Positions 35,211 through 47,903 of a DNA stretch of 64,000 nt are shown here, in pieces. Source of the DNA: Natronococcus sp. AD-5. Lineage in GTDB: Archaea > Halobacteriota > Halobacteria > Halobacteriales > Natrialbaceae. Position 1 is the first letter of the stretch. Each line of letters opens with the position of its first letter. The stretch lies in assembly GCF_030734285.1 (NCBI RefSeq), contig NZ_CP132294.1:682001-746000 (forward strand). Direction: 5' to 3'. The notes under the pieces are model-generated. The model was not told where the DNA came from and did not search any database. It was given only the letters and a program-made list of their open reading frames with translations. A program made the translations under genes and the position numbers.

Positions 35211-37034
35211 CTACTCGAGGACGACCAGCGTGTCGCCCATGTCGACGCTCTCGCCCTCCTCGATAGCGACCTGGGAGACCGTGCCGCCGCGGGAGGCGAC
35301 GATATCGTTCTCCATCTTCATCGCCTCGAGGACGACGAGCACGTCGCCGGCCGTGACCTCGTCGCCGACCTCGACTTCGACGCCGAGGATCGTTCCCTGC
35401 ATCTCCGCGTCGACCGTCTCGCCGTCGCCCTCGACGGCGGTCTCTTCGTCGGCGGACCCGCCGGCGGGCTGTGGCGGGCTCGCGGCCCGACTGCCGCCGT
35501 CGCCGGTCGGGATGGCCGGCGCGCCGTGTTCCTCGAGGTTGACCTCGAAGCGCTTCCCGTTGACCTCGACGGTGAACTCGCGCTCGACGGACTCCTCGTC
35601 CTCGGCGCCGCCGGTGTCGGCCGATCCCCACTGCTCCTGGGCGTCCGCGATGCGGCTCTCGTCGAGCTCCTCGTCCAGGTACTTCGTGGTGTGGGTGCTG
35701 GCGACGAACTCCTCGTCGGTGAGCATCAGCCGGTGGAACGGGATGATCGTCGGGATGCCCTCGATCTCGTACTCCCTGAGCGCGCGCAGCGACCGCTCGA
35801 GGCACTCGTCGCGGTCCTCGCCCCAGACGATCAGCTTCGCGATCATCGAGTCGTAGTCGGTGACCAGTTCGTCGCCCTGTTTGAGCGCGTCGTCGAGGCG
35901 GACGCCGATCCCGCCCGGCGGATCGTACGTCGTCAGCGTGCCGCCGGTCGCGGGCGCGAAGTCCTCGGCGGCGTTTTCGGCGTTGATCCGGAACTCGATC
36001 GCGTGGCCGTCGATCTCGACGTCGTCCTGGTCGAAGTCGATCTCCTCGCCGGCGGCGATCCGGATCTGGCGCTTGACGATGTCGATGCCCGTGATCTCCT
36101 CGGTGACCGTGTGCTCGACCTGGATCCGGGTGTTGACCTCGAGGAAGTAGAAGTTCGCGTCCGGCCCCAGCGGGCCGTCGCGGCCGGGCTCCTCCTCGAC
36201 GAGGAACTCGACGGTGCCGGCGTTGGTGTAGTCGGCGGCGGAGACGCCGCGGCGGGCCGCCTCGCCGATCTTCTCGCGGAGGTCGTCCGTCAGCGCCGCG
36301 GACGGGCCCTCTTCGATGACCTTCTGGTGGCGGCGCTGGAGCGAACAGTCGCGCTCGCCGAGGTGGCGGACGTTGCCGTGCTGGTCGGCGACGATCTGGA
36401 CCTCGATGTGGCGGGGTTGCTCGAGGTAGCGCTCGAGGTAGACCGACGGGTTGTCGAAGTACGCTTCGCCCTCGCGCTTGGCGCTCTCGAGTTGGTCTTC
36501 GACCTCGCTCTCGTCCCAGACGACCTTCATCCCGCGGCCGCCGCCGCCGCCCTCGGCCTTGATCGCGATCGGGTAGCCGTGTTTCTCGCCGAAGGCTTTG
36601 ACCTCCTCGGGTTCGGTGACCGGGTCGGTCGTGCCGGGCACGATCGGGACGTCGGCCTCGTTCATGATCTTCCGGGCCTTCGTCTTCTCGCCCAGCGACT
36701 CCATCGCGTCGCTCGAGGGGCCGACCCAGGTGATCCCCTCCGCGTCTTCGACCTTGCTCGCGAACTCGGCGTTCTCGGCGAGAAAGCCGTAACCGGGGTG
36801 GATGGCGTCGGCGTCGGCCTTGCGCGCGGCCTCGATGACGGCCTCGTGATCCAGATACGAGTCCGCCGCGCGGGCTGGCCCGACGTTGTAGGCCTCATCG
36901 GCGTAGCGGACGTGTCCCGAGTCCTTGTCGGCCTCGGAGTAGATAGCGACGGTTCCGACGTTCAACTCTTCGCACGCTCGCATCACGCGAACGGCGATCT
37001 CCCCGCGGTTCGCCACGAGAACCTTCCTGAACAT
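35211..37034 (-). CDS. pccA: Propionyl/acetyl-CoA carboxylase, biotin carboxylase-BCCP subunit
   Basis: Biotin-dependent carboxylase alpha subunit of about 607 residues. It has the N-terminal biotin carboxylase domain ([21 protein letters not shown]-grasp segment [31 protein letters not shown]) and a C-terminal biotin carrier domain with the biotin-accepting Lys in [11 protein letters not shown] linker near residues 500-540 is acidic and Ala/Gly-rich. It charges biotin with bicarbonate and ATP; PccB then transfers the carboxyl group to propionyl- or acetyl-CoA. ATG 37034 (MFRKVLVA) is the conserved start; another ATG is six codons upstream. It is downstream of pccB and pccX, with a 250-bp gap. 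Confidence 0.92.
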
Positions 37035-37284
37035 TCCTGTTGAAATCGTCATCGGGCGGCTACCTTACTTTTTCGCAACGGTTCCGTCGACTGGCGGGTA
37101 AACTCGGGTTGACGGGCGGTGCCGAGACGGCGGTCGCCGCGTTAGCCGCCGATTTCCGCGGCGATCTCCTCCAGCGCGTCGTCGCCGTTCGTCGAGGGAG
37201 GGAGACCGCGGCCGCAACTTCCGGGTTAACGAGCCCGCCGCTGCCGTCGGTTCGCGACTCGAGAGCGCCGAACGCGCTCGTGGT

Positions 37285-37597: not shown

Positions 37598-39148
37598 TCA
37601 GAGCGGGATGTTGCCGTGTTTCTTGTCCGGGTTCTCCTCGCGCTTCGTCTCGAGCATCTCGAGGTCGGCGATCAGCCGCGGGCGCGTTTCGGTGGGGAGA
37701 ATGACGTCGTCGAGGAAGCCCTTGTCCGTCGCCGTGTAGGGGTTGGCGAACTCCTCGCGGTACTCCTCGATGAGTTCGTCCCGGAGTTCGTCGGGGTTCT
37801 CCGCTTCGGCGAGTTCCTCGCGGTAGAGGATGTTGACCGCGCCCTGCGGCCCCATGACGGCGATCTCGGCGGTCGGCCAGGCGTAGTTGACGTCGGCGCC
37901 CAGGTTCTTCGAGGCCATGACGCAGTAGGCGCCGCCGTAGGCCTTGCGCGTGATGACCGTCAGCAGGGGAACGGTCGCCTCCGCGTACGCGTAGAGTAAC
38001 TTGGCGCCGTGGCGGATGATCCCGCGGTGTTCCTGGTCCGTTCCGGGCATGTAGCCGGGGACGTCGACGAAGGTCACGATCGGGATGTTAAAGGAGTCGC
38101 AAAAGCGGACGAACCGCGAGCCCTTCATCGAGGCGTCGACGGTGAGCGTGCCGGCGTTGACCCGCGGCTGGTTTGCGACGAGACCCACCGAGCGGCCGTC
38201 GAGGCGCCCGAAGCCGACGACGACGTTCTGCGCGAAGTTCTCGGCGACCTCGAAGAACGAACCCTCGTCGACGATCGAGTCGATGACGTTGGTCATGTCG
38301 TACGGTTTCTGCGGGCTGTCGGGGACGATCGACTCGAGCGCCTCGTCGCGCCGATCCGGATCGTCCCAGGGGTCGACCCGCGGCGGGTCCTCGACGTTGT
38401 TCTGCGGGAGGTACGAGAGCAGGCGCTTGATGTCGTCCAGGGCCTGTTCCTCGTTCTCGCAGACGAACTCGGCGACGCCGGTCTTGTTGGCGTGGGTCAT
38501 CGCGCCGCCGAGTTCCTCGTGCGTGACGTCTTCACCGGTGACCGTCTTGGTGACGCCGGGGCCGGTGATGTACATGTGGCTCGTGTCCTTCACCATGAAG
38601 ATGAAATCGGTGATCGACGGCGAGTAGACGGCGCCGCCGGCACAGGGTCCCATGATCGAGGAGATCTGGGGGACGACGCCGCTGGCTTCCTGATTGCGCC
38701 GGAAGATCTCGGTGAAGCCGGCGAGGCTCTTGACGCCCTCCTGGATGCGCGCGCCGGCGGAGTCGTTGAGGCCGACGACGGGGGCGCCGACCTCCATCGC
38801 CATGTCCATCACCTTGCAGATCTTCTCGGCGAAGACCTCGCCCAGCGAGCCGCCGAAGACGGTGAAGTCGTGGGCGAAGACGAAGACCGTTCGACCGTTG
38901 ACCTCGCCGTAGCCCGTGATGACGCCGTCGCCCGGGATCTGCTTTTCCTCCATCCCGAACTGGCTCGTCTGGTGGGTTCGGAGCTGATCGAACTCCGTGA
39001 ACGTCCCGTCGTCGAGGAAGTAGTCGATCCGCTCGCGGGCGGTCATCTTCCCCTTGTCATGTTGTTTCTCGATTCGGGCCTCACCACCGCCCATCCGGGC
39101 TTCTTCCCGGAGTTCCTCGAGTTCCTCGATGCGATCCTCCATCGTCAT
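37598..39148 (-). CDS. pccB: Propionyl/acetyl-CoA carboxylase, carboxyltransferase subunit
   Basis: Carboxyltransferase of 516 residues, normal for PccB. Recognisable segments are [17 protein letters not shown], the N-domain oxyanion region [31 protein letters not shown], the CoA-binding stretch [14 protein letters not shown], and in the C-domain [31 protein letters not shown] and [20 protein letters not shown]. In haloarchaea the enzyme serves propionate and odd-chain or branched-chain catabolism, and the 3-hydroxypropionate route to PHBV precursors in some species. ATG 39148 is chosen ([11 protein letters not shown]); the upstream frame has no conserved residues. Confidence 0.93.
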
Positions 39149-39523
39149 GCCGGAAACACCTCCATCGGTTGCATACGGCGTTGTGTGACGACCAACAGGA
39201 AAAGAATTCCGTAACCCGCTACAATTGATCAGTAACAAACGGGCATCAACCGTAGCGTGAAGGACGTGCCCGAGCGAGGGGAAGTTGGGTGAGAAGCAAT
39301 GCTCGACCGTTGTCCGGGCAGCGGTCGACTGTGAGTACGAGCACGAGACCTCGGGAAATCGCTCGTCGAAGTCTGGTTCGTGATCTCCGAATACCGAATC
39401 AGACGCTTCTGACACCGATTTCCCTACTATAGCGAAACTGACTCAACCAGATCACAGCTGACAGCCTTCGCAACTCTCCACAATGCTACGATCTCACCTT
39501 GATACCGTGGAGTTCGGGCCCGG
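39149..39523. other. 375-bp intergenic region upstream of pccB
   Basis: No gene recognised. It contains the pccB promoter side on the minus strand, with an AT-rich patch near 39215-39235, and the 3' side of the NSS symporter gene that ends at 39524. I saw no strong hairpin or clear TATA box at the usual distance from the pccB ATG. Confidence 0.35.
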
Positions 39524-41566: not shown

Positions 41567-41585
41567 TTGGGTGAGACCATATGGC

Positions 41586-42872
41586 ATGGGTCGGGAATTC
41601 AATCGACGCAGGGTGCTCAGTGGGATCGGTGTTGCCGGAACGCTCGGTCTCGCCGGCTGTATCGGAGACGAAGGTCAAATCGAAGAGGGGGGACCTGACG
41701 TTCTGAACATCATCGGCTATCCGGAAAGCGGCATTCAGATCTTCCGAGATTACTACTCGGAGTTCGGTGCCGGTACGGCCGACATTATCGTTCCGGACGG
41801 GCTGCTCGACGATGCGTTACCGGGCGAGGTCGGCGAGGACATGGGCGACGTCACCGGGACCGCACCGTCCTCGGCGGGCCCCAACGAGCAAGCGTTCGAC
41901 GAGATGTACCAGGACGAGTACGGCGAGTCGGCCGGCGTGTTCAACTCGCACACGTTCGACGCCGTCGCGGTGATGGTCCTCGCGAACATCGCCGCGGGCG
42001 ACAACGACGGCGAGGCGATCCGGGATCAAGTTCGCAACATCACCAATCCGGACGAAGGCGACGAGTACGGACCGGACGAGTTGCAGGAAGCCGCCGAAGC
42101 GGTCGCCGACGGCGAGCCGATCAACTACCAGGGCGCCTCGAGCGCGGTCGACTTCGACGACGTCGGCGATCCCGCCGAGGCCGCCTACGACATCTGGAAC
42201 TTCACCGAGGACGGAACCGAGACGCAAGATACCATCAACTTCGAGGGCGAAGGCCCCGGCGGCGACGCGGCCGACGAGATCCCCGGCGGAACGGATCGCG
42301 ACCAAGTGAGCGTCGCCATCCTCCTGCCGCAGACGGGCGACCTCGGGGAACTCGGCAGCCTGATGATCCAGGCCGGCGAACTCGCAGCTCAGGAGTTCCA
42401 GGGTGCCTTCGAGATCGACCTGCGGATCGAAGACACCGCGACCGACGAAGATACGACCTTGAGCTCGGCGGAGTCGCTCATCGACGCCGGCTATCCCGCG
42501 ATCGTCGGAGCGGCGTCGTCCGGTAACTCCGTTCCGCTCAGCGGGCTTAGCAGCGACTCCGGCATCGTCCAGTGCTCGCCGGCGAGCACCGCGCTGAGCC
42601 TCTCCGAGATCGATGACGACGGCTACTTCTTCCGGACCGCGCCCAGCGACCTCCTGCAGGGCCAGGTGATGGCGGACGTCGCCGCCGGTCGACTCGAGGC
42701 CGAAACTACGTCGACGCTGTACGTCAACAACGACTACGGCCAGCAGCTCTCCGAACGGTACGCGGAGATGTTCCAAGACGAGCAGGACGGCGAGGTCATC
42801 AACCAGGTCTCGTTCGAACCGGAACAGGGATCGTACACGAGCGAACTCGAGTCGGCGCTGGCCGGCGACTGA
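41586..42872 (+). CDS. Circularly permuted Liv-type substrate-binding lipoprotein
   Basis: Branched-chain amino-acid-type binding protein of an ABC importer, 428 residues, but with its halves in reversed order. Residues 1-25 form a Tat signal with lipobox (RRRVLSGIGVAGTLGLAGC). Residues 37-222 are what family members have at the C-terminal side: PDVLNIIGYPESGIQIF, AFDEMYQDEYGESAG, HTFDAVAVMVLANIAAG, NDGEAIRDQV. Residues 241-428 are the normal N-terminal part: VSVAILLPQTGDLGELG, AGELAAQEF, AIVGAASSGNSV, SPASTALSLSE, FFRTAPSDLLQGQVMA, VNNDYGQQL, SYTSELESALAGD and then the stop. GD would normally be joined to PDVLN. No stop or frameshift interrupts it. Neighbours are livF-G-M-H, convergent. Confidence 0.85.
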   Translation: MGREFNRRRVLSGIGVAGTLGLAGCIGDEGQIEEGGPDVLNIIGYPESGIQIFRDYYSEFGAGTADIIVPDGLLDDALPGEVGEDMGDVTGTAPSSAGPNEQAFDEMYQDEYGESAGVFNSHTFDAVAVMVLANIAAGDNDGEAIRDQVRNITNPDEGDEYGPDELQEAAEAVADGEPINYQGASSAVDFDDVGDPAEAAYDIWNFTEDGTETQDTINFEGEGPGGDAADEIPGGTDRDQVSVAILLPQTGDLGELGSLMIQAGELAAQEFQGAFEIDLRIEDTATDEDTTLSSAESLIDAGYPAIVGAASSGNSVPLSGLSSDSGIVQCSPASTALSLSEIDDDGYFFRTAPSDLLQGQVMADVAAGRLEAETTSTLYVNNDYGQQLSERYAEMFQDEQDGEVINQVSFEPEQGSYTSELESALAGD

Positions 42873-43036: not shown

Positions 43037-43741
43037 TTAACCGCCGAGGAACTGCTGTCGGACCTCGTCGTCTCCCAACAGCGCCTCGCCCGTATTCTCG
43101 TAGCGGTTCCTTCCCTGGACGAGGACGTAGCCGCGGTCACACCGGCGCAGCGCCTCCTTAGCGTTCTGCTCGACGACCAGGACCGCGGTGCCGTTTTCGT
43201 TGATCGCGTCGACGTGATCGAACATTTCGTCGACGAGGTCGGGCGCGAGCCCCGCGCTCGGCTCGTCGAGCAACAGCAGATCCGGATCGAGCATCAGCGC
43301 CCGTCCCATCGCGACCATCTGTTGCTGTCCGCCGCTCATCGTCCCGGCCTTCTGGTCGCTGCGCTCTCGAAGGACGGGGAAGTGGTCGAAGACCGTCTCG
43401 AGCGCCTCCTCGGGCACTTCGTCGAGGATGTACGCGCCCATCTCGAGGTTCTCTCGTACCGTCAGCGACGGAAAGACGTTGTCGTTCTGGGGAACGTATC
43501 CGATCCCCTCGTGGATGACCTCTTCGGGGGGGCTGTCGGTGATGTCTCGGCTCTGGAACTCGACCGAACCACCCATGTAGGTCGTCAGCCCGAAGACGGA
43601 CTTCATGGCCGTCGACTTCCCCGCCCCGTTCGGACCAACGATCACGACGTACTCCTCCTCGCCGACGTCGAGGTCGACGTCGTGGAGGATCTGCAGGTCG
43701 CCGTAGCCCGCGTCGAGGTCGTGAACTTCGAGCATCGACAT
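43037..43741 (-). CDS. livF: Branched-chain amino-acid ABC transporter ATPase LivF
   Basis: ATP-binding subunit of 234 residues, peripheral at the inner face of the membrane. Walker A is GPNGAGKST, the Q-loop segment is GYVPQNDNVFPSLTV, the ABC signature is MSGGQQQMVAMGRAL and Walker B is LLLLDEPSAGLAP. VVEQNAKEALRRCDRGYVL is typical of LivF rather than LivG. It is the last gene of livH-livM-livG-livF, with its start directly abutting the livG stop. The operon ends 164 bp from the convergent binding-protein gene. Confidence 0.93.
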   Translation of the reverse strand: MSMLEVHDLDAGYGDLQILHDVDLDVGEEEYVVIVGPNGAGKSTAMKSVFGLTTYMGGSVEFQSRDITDSPPEEVIHEGIGYVPQNDNVFPSLTVRENLEMGAYILDEVPEEALETVFDHFPVLRERSDQKAGTMSGGQQQMVAMGRALMLDPDLLLLDEPSAGLAPDLVDEMFDHVDAINENGTAVLVVEQNAKEALRRCDRGYVLVQGRNRYENTGEALLGDDEVRQQFLGG

Positions 43742-44578
43742 CTACACCTCACCCCCGAGGTAGGCCTCGATGACCTGCTTGTTCGAAGTGATCTCCGCCG
43801 GTCTCCCCTCCGCGAGGACCGAACCTTGGTGCATCACGATGATGTGTTCGCAGTTTTCCATAATGACGTCCATATCGTGTTCGACGATCAGGAAGGTGTA
43901 GCCCTCCTCGCGCAGGCCGTGGACGTGTTCGAGGAGTTTCTTTTCGAGCGTCGGATTGACGCCCGCGAACGGCTCGTCGAGCAGCAGCATCTCCGGGTCG
44001 GTCATCAACGCCCGGGCCATCTCTAAGAGCTTGCGCTGCCCGCCGGAGAGGGTTCCGGCTTTCACCTCGGCGAGGTGTTCGATCTCGAAGAACTCGAGGG
44101 TATCCCACACCCGTTCCAGAAGCTCGCGTTCTTGTCGTTCGATCTCCCGCCTGACGACGGGCGTGACGGAACGCCAGAGCGCTTCCCCTTTCTGGTGCTT
44201 CGCCGGAAGCATCAGATTTTCCAGGACGGTCATGTTCGACATCTCGCGGGCGATCTGGAACGTCCGAACGAGTCCGTAATCGACGACCTCGTAGGGGGAC
44301 AGTCCGGTGATGTCCTGCCCTCGAAACGTGACCGTGCCCGCATCCGGTCGGTGAGCGCCGGTGATGCAGTTGAACGTCGTCGACTTGCCGGCCCCGTTCG
44401 GACCGATCAGGCCGGTCATCGACCCTTCCTCGACCTGGAACGTCGCACCGTCCACGGCGGTGATACCACCGAAGCGTTTTACGAGCCCGTTTACCGCGAG
44501 GGCGACGTCCCTGCTCCGACCCGAATCAGGCTCTTCGGCGGTTATCGGCGCCGACCGATCGCTCGCTACGTCGCTCAC
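43742..44578 (-). CDS. livG: Branched-chain amino-acid ABC transporter ATPase LivG
   Basis: Second ATP-binding subunit, 278 residues. Walker A is GPNGAGKSTTFNCITG, the signature is LSGGQRKLLEMARALM and Walker B is MLLLDEPFAGVNP, followed by LIVEHDMDVIMENCEHIIVMHQGSVLAEG. The long insertion between Walker A and signature (MLPAKHQKGEALWRS...) is usual for LivG. An N-terminal extension of about 25 acidic residues precedes the domain. Its start overlaps the livM stop by 4 bases (ATGA). Confidence 0.93.
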   Translation of the reverse strand: MSDVASDRSAPITAEEPDSGRSRDVALAVNGLVKRFGGITAVDGATFQVEEGSMTGLIGPNGAGKSTTFNCITGAHRPDAGTVTFRGQDITGLSPYEVVDYGLVRTFQIAREMSNMTVLENLMLPAKHQKGEALWRSVTPVVRREIERQERELLERVWDTLEFFEIEHLAEVKAGTLSGGQRKLLEMARALMTDPEMLLLDEPFAGVNPTLEKKLLEHVHGLREEGYTFLIVEHDMDVIMENCEHIIVMHQGSVLAEGRPAEITSNKQVIEAYLGGEV

Positions 44579-45885
44579 GTCGACTCACCCCCATCGTTAC
44601 CGCTAGCGGCCTCTGACGGGCGTCTCGCGAGCGGTACCGCCGCTGCCGTCTCCTCGCGGTGGCCGAGTAACCCTTCCGGGCGTCGTTGCATCAGTACGAC
44701 GAGCGTAATTCCCATGATGACGAACTGGAGGGTCAGCAAGTTGTCGAACGTGTACCGCAGCAGTGGGGCCGGGTCGGCGGCCAGCAAGGCTCCGGTTCCC
44801 TCCGCAAAGGTGTTCGGGGCCGCGTCGACGTTGACCCACGAGCCGATCAGTCGGCGGATGTACCGCGGGCCCTCGAAGAGGACGGCCACGAACAGCCCGG
44901 ATCCGAGGATGCTGCCCGTATTCGATCCCGCTCCGCCGATGATCAGCGCGATCCAGATGAAAAACGTGACGTGCGGGCGGAACGCGTCCGGCGTAACCCC
45001 TGTTCGGCGGAAACGCCACAGGATGCCCGCCAGTCCCATGAGTGCGCACCCGAGAATGAACACTTTGATCTTGAACATGTTTGTGTTCTTTCCGAGCGCC
45101 TGCGCCGCCTCCTCGTCTTCACGAATCGCCTTGAGGACGCGTCCGAACGGCGATCTGCTGGTTCGCTGGATAAGCCAGTAGAATCCGACGAGAAACAGGA
45201 GGAGGACCAGCGAATACGCCAGCGCTCGCGCCTGCCGCGGCCCGAAACCGAACCATCGGTTCGTCGTGTCGACGAAGGTCGTGAACGCCGGGAGGTCGAA
45301 GATGAAATTCATCGGATCGGAGTAGTTACCGATGATCCCCCGACCGCCGCCCGTCCCGAGCTCCCTCCCGAAGATCGTGAAGCTCTCTAACGGGCCGGAT
45401 TTGAGGGAGAGACGTACGATCTCGGAGAACGCGATAGTGACGATCGCGAGGTAGTCCGCGCGCAGTCGCAACGCCGGAAGCGCGACGACGAGTCCCGCGA
45501 TGGCGGCGGCGAGAACGCCGCCGGCCATGGCGATCGGCATCGGAAGACCGAGGCCCGGATACTGGGCCGCGCCCGTCGTCTCAACGGGTTTGGCGAGCAT
45601 CATCGTCACGTACAGCCCGATCGCCATGAACCCGGCGACCCCGATGTTGAACAGTCCGGTGTAGCCCCAGTGTAAGTTCAACGCGAGGGCGACCATGCCG
45701 TAGACGGCGATGAGGTACGTCAGATGTCTGAGCGTGTTGGCGATACCGGCCATCGAGTATCCGAGCACCAGTCCGATCGCCGCATAGACGACGTAGATGG
45801 CGCCGATGACTCCCACGATCTTCACTGCGTCGTATTCCCAGTACTCGTTGAACCGATCCCTTGCGTTGGTTACGTTCGTGCTCAT
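44575..45885 (-). CDS. livM: Branched-chain amino-acid ABC transporter permease LivM
   Basis: Inner-membrane permease of 436 residues with 8-10 helices. Typical LivM segments are LNLHWGYTGLFNIGVAGFMAIGLYVTM, RLRADYLAIVTIAFSEIVRL and the EAA-like coupling loop SPFGRVLKAIREDEEAAQALGKNTNMFKIKVFILGC. The C-terminal 30 residues are hydrophilic (LLGHREETAAAVPLARRPSEA). Its ATG overlaps the livH stop by 4 bases, so the operon is translationally coupled. Confidence 0.93.
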   Translation of the reverse strand: MSTNVTNARDRFNEYWEYDAVKIVGVIGAIYVVYAAIGLVLGYSMAGIANTLRHLTYLIAVYGMVALALNLHWGYTGLFNIGVAGFMAIGLYVTMMLAKPVETTGAAQYPGLGLPMPIAMAGGVLAAAIAGLVVALPALRLRADYLAIVTIAFSEIVRLSLKSGPLESFTIFGRELGTGGGRGIIGNYSDPMNFIFDLPAFTTFVDTTNRWFGFGPRQARALAYSLVLLLFLVGFYWLIQRTSRSPFGRVLKAIREDEEAAQALGKNTNMFKIKVFILGCALMGLAGILWRFRRTGVTPDAFRPHVTFFIWIALIIGGAGSNTGSILGSGLFVAVLFEGPRYIRRLIGSWVNVDAAPNTFAEGTGALLAADPAPLLRYTFDNLLTLQFVIMGITLVVLMQRRPEGLLGHREETAAAVPLARRPSEAASGNDGGEST

Positions 45886-47015
45886 GCTGTCGTCTTCCCT
45901 CCGAACAGTCCCGATGGCTTGATAAGCAACACGACGATCATGATGAGGAACGCGGTGATCGTGGTGAAGTCACCGCCGGGCAACCAGATCAGCGATAGGC
46001 GCATCGCCAGCCCGATGACGATCCCGCCGACGATAGCACCGTAGACCGAACCGATACCACCTAGGATCACCGCGGAGAAAATAAGCAATAGCAACAGCCA
46101 ACCGAACTGGTAATTGATCGTCCCCGTCCAGAGTACCATGAGGTACCCCGCGACCCCCGCTAGGCCACCTCCGATGATCCACGTCCAGCGAATGACGCGT
46201 TCGGTCGGAATTCCGGTTACCTGTGCGAGGTCCTTGTTGTCGGACATCGCGCGCATCGCTTTCCCTAGCTTCGTTTTCTGGAGCAAGAGGTGGACGCCGA
46301 TCATGAGACCGCCCGCCGCCACTAACAGCGTGGCGTCGTGCATGTCGACGTTCACCGTTCCATCAACCAACAGGAAATTGAACTCCGGCAGTCCGAAGGT
46401 GCTCGTCGTTCCGCGCGTACGCGACGAGTAGACGAATACGAGGAGGTATCGGAGCGCGAACGCAACCCCGATACTCGCGATCAGCAGTGGAATCCCCCCG
46501 GACCCGCGCATCGGCTTGTACACGTACCGATCGATCAGCAGGACGAGTGCGGCCGTAGCGGCGCCGGTGAACACGAGACCGATCAGAATCGCCAGCGGCG
46601 TCGACCAGATCGAAATGCCGATCTCAGCGCCTCCGACCCCGCGCTGTGGAGCAACGAGGGCGAGGTGTCCAAAACTCACCTCGTCCCCGAGCACGAGAAC
46701 CCGCCCGGCGATGATGTACGTGACGCCCCAGCCGAGAAAGGCGCCCGTCGAGATGTAGTCCCCGTGAGCGAAGTTCGCGAAGTTCAGAATGCTGTACGTC
46801 ATCGAGAGGCCGATGCCGGCCAGTCCGATGATCAGCCCGTACATCAGCCCCTGCCACGCGTACCTCCCGATCCGGGAGATGCTGTATCTCCCCGTCACGA
46901 TCCCGTGAACGAGATCCACGGCCAACACCAAAGCCGCGAATATCGCCAGTATGAGCACGATTTGCTCGAGAGTAAGCCCCCGTCCCCGGTTCACCGCCTC
47001 ATCGACAGTCGCCAT
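45882..47015 (-). CDS. livH: Branched-chain amino-acid ABC transporter permease LivH
   Basis: Inner-membrane permease of 377 residues, first gene of the four-gene liv operon. It has GLIIGLAGIGLSMTYSILNFANFAHGDYISTGAFLGW and the coupling loop TKLGKAMRAMSDNKDLAQVTGIPTERVIRWTWIIGGGLAGVAGYLMVL. An N-terminal stretch of about 45 residues precedes the usual first helix. A TATA-like CATATAAC (47057-47064, minus) lies about 45 bases upstream. No substrate-binding gene precedes it; the only candidate partner is the permuted binding protein at the other end. Confidence 0.93.
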   Translation of the reverse strand: MATVDEAVNRGRGLTLEQIVLILAIFAALVLAVDLVHGIVTGRYSISRIGRYAWQGLMYGLIIGLAGIGLSMTYSILNFANFAHGDYISTGAFLGWGVTYIIAGRVLVLGDEVSFGHLALVAPQRGVGGAEIGISIWSTPLAILIGLVFTGAATAALVLLIDRYVYKPMRGSGGIPLLIASIGVAFALRYLLVFVYSSRTRGTTSTFGLPEFNFLLVDGTVNVDMHDATLLVAAGGLMIGVHLLLQKTKLGKAMRAMSDNKDLAQVTGIPTERVIRWTWIIGGGLAGVAGYLMVLWTGTINYQFGWLLLLLIFSAVILGGIGSVYGAIVGGIVIGLAMRLSLIWLPGGDFTTITAFLIMIVVLLIKPSGLFGGKTTA

Positions 47016-47180: not shown

Positions 47181-47903
47181 TTAGGCTTCGCCGTACACGG
47201 GGACGGCCGCCCCGCTGGTCACCGTTGCACCGTCGCTGCAGAGAAACGCCAGCACGTCGGCGATTTCTCCCGGGTCGACCCACGAGTCGTGGTCGGCGTC
47301 CGGCATCATCTCTCGGTTCATCGGCGTGTCGATCACGCTCGGCATCACGCAGTTCGCCCGGACGACGCCCTCGTTCTCCTCGGCCAGCGTCTCGGTCAAC
47401 AGCCGAATTCCCGCCTTCGTGATCCGGTAGGGGCCGTCGCCCTCGCCGCCCTCGAGCGACGAGCGGGCGCTGATGCTGACGATCGATCCCTCGGACTCCC
47501 GGAGGTGGGGGAGCGCGTGCTTCGAGGCCAGGAACGCCGTCTTCAGGTTGACGTCGACCAGCAGGTCGAACTCTTCGAGGTCGGTCTCCTCGATCGGGTC
47601 GCCGCCGCGCCAGGTGCCGGCGATGTTACAGAGGTGGTCGATCCGACCGTGATCGTCGACGATTTCGTCGACGAGGCGCGCGACGTCGTCCTCGTCGGTC
47701 AGGTCCGCCTCGTAGAAGTGCGTCCCGTCGTCGGGTTCGAGCAAACTGTCCTCGTCGTCGGGTTCGACGACGTCGACGGCGCAGACGGTCGCACCGGCCT
47801 CGCGAAAGCGGTCGACGGCGGCGCTTCCCAGCGCGCCGCTCGCACCCGTGATCACGGCGACGGTTCCGTCGAAGTCGACGTCGAATGCTGTCGTCGGCGA
47901 CAT
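47181..47903 (-). CDS. Short-chain dehydrogenase/reductase
   Basis: NAD(P)-dependent oxidoreductase of 240 residues. The nucleotide motif is ITGASGALGSAAVDRF (TGxxxGxG form), the acidic residue after strand 2 is VDVVEPDDED (suggesting NAD rather than NADP), then CNIAGTW in place of NNAG, and the active site has SISARSS and YRITKAG (Ser, Tyr, Lys). It is complete. Substrate unknown. It is upstream of the liv operon in genome order, but on the same strand and with a 165-bp gap that holds the liv promoter, so it is transcribed separately. Confidence 0.87.
   Translation of the reverse strand: MSPTTAFDVDFDGTVAVITGASGALGSAAVDRFREAGATVCAVDVVEPDDEDSLLEPDDGTHFYEADLTDEDDVARLVDEIVDDHGRIDHLCNIAGTWRGGDPIEETDLEEFDLLVDVNLKTAFLASKHALPHLRESEGSIVSISARSSLEGGEGDGPYRITKAGIRLLTETLAEENEGVVRANCVMPSVIDTPMNREMMPDADHDSWVDPGEIADVLAFLCSDGATVTSGAAVPVYGEA

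Follow-up and report, generated by a model that had tools for sequence, protein, structure and literature searches.

Does the gene at 41586-42872 (+) in the 64,000-nucleotide stretch of Natronococcus sp. AD-5 DNA analysed here (the window) encode a substrate-binding protein (SBP) whose two halves have changed places, and, if it does, by what route and how often did such a rearrangement arise? A sequence-only reading of this DNA had claimed an inverted half order, an intact signal with Cys25, and two halves in frame and free of stops, and our analysis bears out these claims. The gene encodes a naturally circularly permuted LivJ/LivK-type (Peripla_BP_6) lipoprotein of 428 residues. Both halves are open and in frame up to the stop codon at 42870-42872. 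A GTG at 41571 is an alternative start in the same frame; the ATG at 41586 is supported by homologs. The parts of the gene are as follows.

41586..41660 (+): twin-arginine/lipoprotein signal, MGREFNRRR...LAGC, read from the sequence; RRR motif and lipobox LAGC present, anchor Cys25 at 41658-41660
41661..41693 (+): short tether, residues 26-36 (IGDEGQIEEGG), low complexity in homologs
41694..42245 (+): SBP C-half, residues 37-220, encoded first here and last in normal-order proteins (HMM halves; 3td9 204-359)
42246..42305 (+): closing linker, residues 221-240 (GEGPGGDAADEIPGGTDRDQ), from the old C-terminus to the old N-terminus (linker table; conserved in its clade)
42306..42869 (+): SBP N-half, residues 241-428, encoded last here and first in normal-order proteins (PF13458 2-187; 3td9 14-201)

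The chain order of C-half, linker and N-half emerges both from HMMs of the halves and from alignment to the LivK structure 3td9. The start of the PF13458 profile (positions 2-187) is matched by window residues 241-425 with an E value of 8.8e-26 and 91.8 bits, the cutoff being 31.7. By phmmer, 3td9 chain 14-201 corresponds to residues 238-425 and 204-359 to residues 36-193; because the N-part of the structure aligns to late and the C-part to early window residues, the order of the window protein is inverted. Once rotated, the protein shares 197 identities in 373 columns (53% identical) with L145, a normal-order haloarchaeal relative, and the alignment runs through the cut site without a gap (window ...SYTSELESALAGD/PDVLNIIGYP...; L145 SYTSQIGDALADDPDILMVVGFP), in agreement with the proposal that a natural join LAGD-PDVLN is now split between the two ends of the protein. 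The halves first delimited as residues 37-222 and 241-428 are real; the former has to be shortened, since the linker that joins them comprises residues 221-240. A profile search of the window protein returned Peripla_BP_6 and ANF_receptor only, and PF13458 is matched by all 55 of the aligned permuted members. Both Peripla_BP_6/HAAT (LivJ-LivK) halves are present by the HMMs and the rotated alignment, the linear N-half to C-half order of that family is absent, and the protein is therefore classed as a permuted variant and not as an ordinary Peripla_BP_6 member. The RR...(L/I)AGC pattern likewise precedes the cut in most permuted homologs.

An assembly or annotation error that swapped the halves of a normal gene is the most prosaic explanation for such an order, and normal order is indeed found at this locus in some close relatives, an outcome that the sequence-only reading had named, in combination with junctions left unsupported by long reads, as pointing to misassembly. 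Misassembly is not the reason: the locus itself differs between species. The same order, cut and linker recur in independently assembled genomes of many genera, and the window's genome was assembled in 2 contigs, so that a swap error has next to no probability. The search of related genomes that had been suggested as a check gave the same order and the same cut at more than 75 fetched loci. Co-linear full-length homologs (54-100% identity) occur in 24 of 125 genomes of the same family, the window's own included. With a query spanning the permuted junction only (window residues 175-300), 179 of the 392 class genomes sampled (about 45%), in 37 of 86 genera, gave a match at E<=1e-12; about 174 is the fair genome count, since G069 and G112 carry normal-order loci and three further matches are similarly weak and one-sided. 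Outside the class, among 295 sampled genomes of the phylum, there was no permuted junction among the matches listed. For the permuted form, plasmids gave one-sided matches only; tblastn of plasmids with the whole protein gave two-piece matches, and the two examples fetched had normal order. A contig scan from short peptides found one distant relative only, in normal order.

Sorting of the fetched loci with HMMs of the N- and C-halves yielded 79 permuted proteins (type 1), 3 with a second permutation and 55 of normal order. The cut position is identical in every intact type-1 protein, and some genomes carry a normal copy alongside a permuted one. The window's own genome holds a divergent normal-order SBP paralog (L084 6154-7431; G000:C1, about 2.93 Mb), and liv genes were not recognised in the 14-kb stretch around it. 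An apparent poly-alanine tail of L091 was discarded as an artefact of replacing X with A at unknown bases.

Would a protein so rearranged still fold? The AF2 model of the permuted window protein (pLDDT 92.7, pTM 0.89) is as confident as that of the normal-order L145 protein (pLDDT 92.4, pTM 0.91), and the two models share their helices and strands, which follow one another in rotated order; the closing linker has a pLDDT of about 84-94, and residues 1-6 of the model, at the tether, score low. With Foldseek, the normal model and 3td9 align over 379 columns (TM 0.83/0.89) and the permuted model and 3td9 over only 190 (TM 0.38/0.44), as is to be expected when a sequential aligner meets a permuted chain. 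The cut falls between helix 182-188 and strand 195-199 of the L145 model, as expected from the earlier placement of the new ends in a helix-to-strand loop, and within what we take, from knowledge of Type I SBPs, to be the second lobe. The chain starts in the second lobe between its second and third strands and runs to the native C-terminus, from which the conserved linker of about 20 residues leads to the native N-terminus, the chain ending exactly where it began. This arrangement retains the predicted fold and the conserved residues and moves the lipid anchor to the other lobe.

Among 63 positions that are invariant in normal proteins, 53 have that residue conserved in 90% or more of the permuted proteins. 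The dN/dS between the window gene and G094 is about 0.15 and low across both halves, and we therefore conclude that the gene is under purifying selection. The earlier expectation that the fold could survive permutation is in keeping with this selection and with the complete SBP fold, in rotated connectivity, given by AF2. A non-functional or repurposed relic has one precedent in a genome (G042) whose permuted SBP gene (L075 6289-7325) is broken, frame-shifted and truncated, and in which no livFGMH genes were found within the 14-kb stretch examined. The low dN/dS over both halves, the conserved family residues, the intact signal and the conserved liv neighbours make a relic very improbable for the window gene. 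These neighbours are listed below; all are conserved.

43037..43741 (-): livF-like ATPase of the adjacent ABC importer; best NCBIfam match LivF, below the equivalog cutoff
43742..44578 (-): livG-like ATPase; best NCBIfam match LivG, below cutoff
44575..45885 (-): livM-like permease; best NCBIfam match LivM, below cutoff
45882..47015 (-): livH-like permease; best NCBIfam match LivH, below cutoff

The SBP gene and the livF-livG-livM-livH cluster (43037-47015, -) are convergently oriented, a layout shared by most permuted and normal loci. Within the window's own family, a permuted or a normal SBP is found, depending on the species, at one AccC-AccD / SBP> <livF<livG<livM<livH locus, and both kinds of locus often have genes for acyl-CoA carboxylase on one flank and, past livH, an SDR gene. 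Species thus differ in the half order of their SBP at what is apparently one orthologous locus. In the window, the frequent flanks are represented by acyl-CoA carboxylase subunits and an SDR oxidoreductase (35211-37052, 37598-39415 and 47181-47903, all -), the carboxylase subunits being a biotin carboxylase with carrier domain and an MmdA-like carboxyltransferase; these flanks hint at a link to branched-chain or propionyl-CoA metabolism. A sodium-dependent transporter (NF037979; 39524-40876, -) adjoins the SBP gene, and its position around the locus varies in relatives. Two related genomes have tandem pairs of permuted SBP genes beside livFGMH (L089 5380-8192 and L090 5799-8630).

Taken with the predicted fold, we regard the window gene as very probably a functional, naturally circularly permuted HAAT/LivJ-type SBP lipoprotein of the adjacent LivFGMH-type ABC importer. 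The likely and simplest reading is that of an ordinary SBP, anchored by the other lobe, that serves the adjoining importer. The permuted SBP may supply LivHM with a branched-chain amino acid or a related one; as no Liv model is matched above its equivalog cutoff, these names do not fix the ligand.

How often the permutation arose was approached through trees of SBP sequences corrected for order. Bacterial outgroups, with their very long branches, root the SBP tree badly, and the counts of origins therefore rest on unrooted changes and AU tests. The permuted proteins fall into a large clade A, to which the window protein belongs, a small clade B, a clade C and L132 alone, and clade C is nested among normal-order proteins. 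Forcing all permuted SBPs into one clade costs 68 log-likelihood units (p-AU 0.006), a rejection that is moderate for the SBP by itself; what the trees can show is limited by short sequences and long branches. Trees of the N-half only and of the C-half only require the same number of changes as the whole-SBP tree. In a tree of LivFGMH, linked proteins that are free of the trait, A, B (with L132) and C are separated, and a single permuted clade is rejected by 123 units (p-AU 1.8e-6). The linkers, of 18-26 aa in 82 proteins, are unrelated in sequence among the clades (A, G.NPDG.GP.AD..PGG..RE; B, GGSGDIPQPEPAGSGSGADRT; C, GNELSDEDLNATAEDPVGVDEFEA). These data point to at least two, and probably three, origins of the permutation at one site.

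The main rival to recurrence is that the permutation arose only once, in ancient times, and spread; some lineages would later have reverted, or the halves would have been overwritten by gene conversion from normal-order paralogs, and the recurrence would be apparent only. A single origin most simply explains the identical cut across all clades; some genomes do hold both normal and permuted copies, and the half-only trees are weakly resolved. Nevertheless, one clade is rejected in both the SBP and the permease trees, each half separately puts clade C beside normal-order proteins, and gene conversion from normal genes could not replace a linker, yet those of A, B and C are unrelated. We consider one origin with reversals or conversion unlikely, although it is the alternative to be taken most seriously.

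A second, different permutation occurs in three genomes (L080 5726-7060, L081 5670-7001 and L127 6896-8341), in which start and end both lie after helix 1, the cut being between helix 1 and strand 2. These proteins retain a clade-A-like linker together with a restored N-C junction, and they are nested at two places within clade A; the second permutation is derived from the first. In addition, 3-4 residues occur at both of their ends (e.g., ...VNGEI stop and GSEIGL...), as expected if a tandem duplicate is trimmed on both sides (PMC3320104). A permuted gene would accordingly be produced, in the route we propose, by in-frame tandem duplication of the mature SBP region and trimming of both ends. 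At this one site, duplication and trimming would have occurred twice at the least, and probably three times; in two lineages a second round acting on the permuted form would have produced the rarer permutation, with its cut behind helix 1. No fused double-length or partly duplicated intermediate was seen among the fetched loci. In a fission and fusion scheme, the halves would once have been separate genes that were rejoined in opposite order, which could account for a half boundary that is identical every time; separately encoded halves were not seen in the loci examined, however, the cut lies within a lobe and not between lobes, and the short repeated ends of the second permutation are a prediction of duplication. 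We hold fission and fusion to be quite improbable. We judge it fairly likely that one and the same bond was the site of several independent permutations within a single syntenic transporter locus of haloarchaea, with a second permutation following on two occasions.

Compared with the canonical HAAT/LivJ-LivK SBPs (PF13458; 3td9 of Thermotoga maritima LivK; 1usg/2lbp/2liv of E. coli), the permuted SBP shares the family, the conserved residues, the predicted bilobed Type I fold and the liv permease and ATPase neighbours. It differs in starting in the second lobe and ending at the same point, and in having the extra closing linker of about 20 aa and the anchor on the other lobe. The sequence-only reading knew of no natural permutation in this family, and, consistently, no permuted LivJ/K protein or haloarchaeal case is described in the open-licence literature searched; for Type I SBPs at large the statement does not hold. 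TpMglB-2 (Tp0684, PDB 5JX2) is a permuted Type I SBP and the founder of the ‘Type Ic’ SBPs (PMC4990184). It belongs to the bacterial glucose/galactose (MglB) family and has the first three strands of its N-lobe moved to the C-terminus, the moved part having a poor sequence similarity of 13% (PMC4990184). In both cases a tethered Type I SBP has been circularly permuted in nature, and the permuted form is kept in many species. In contrast to TpMglB-2, the haloarchaeal cut is in the other lobe, each half keeps about half of its residues, and one locus houses both the normal and the permuted form. By the features of Type Ic, the window protein has the permuted Type I fold, in a structure that is predicted only, and has neither the MglB-type family nor the cut at the first three N-lobe strands. 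Permutation by duplication, with permuted relatives within one family, is known from saposin/swaposin and the DNA methyltransferases (PMC3320104). The proposed genetic route is alike, whereas here the same cut is apparently parallel, a second permutation is added, and one syntenic transporter locus is involved. The nearest precedent is TpMglB-2; permuted Type I SBPs were known already, and the possible recurrence is the surprising part.

Natural circular permutations have mostly been known as single events in distant relatives. The close homologs described here, in normal, permuted and doubly permuted form at one locus and for the same transporter, constitute a natural comparison set with which the effects of chain order and anchor position on folding, permease docking and evolvability can be addressed. 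The permuted family is common yet easily overlooked, because each half still matches the Pfam model. It has been suggested that permutation adapts SBPs to tethering (PMC4990184); a point that bears on this suggestion is that most normal-order relatives at the locus are lipoproteins as well. If the recurrence is true, the termini and lipid anchor of this SBP could shift freely in the course of evolution, one position being favoured.
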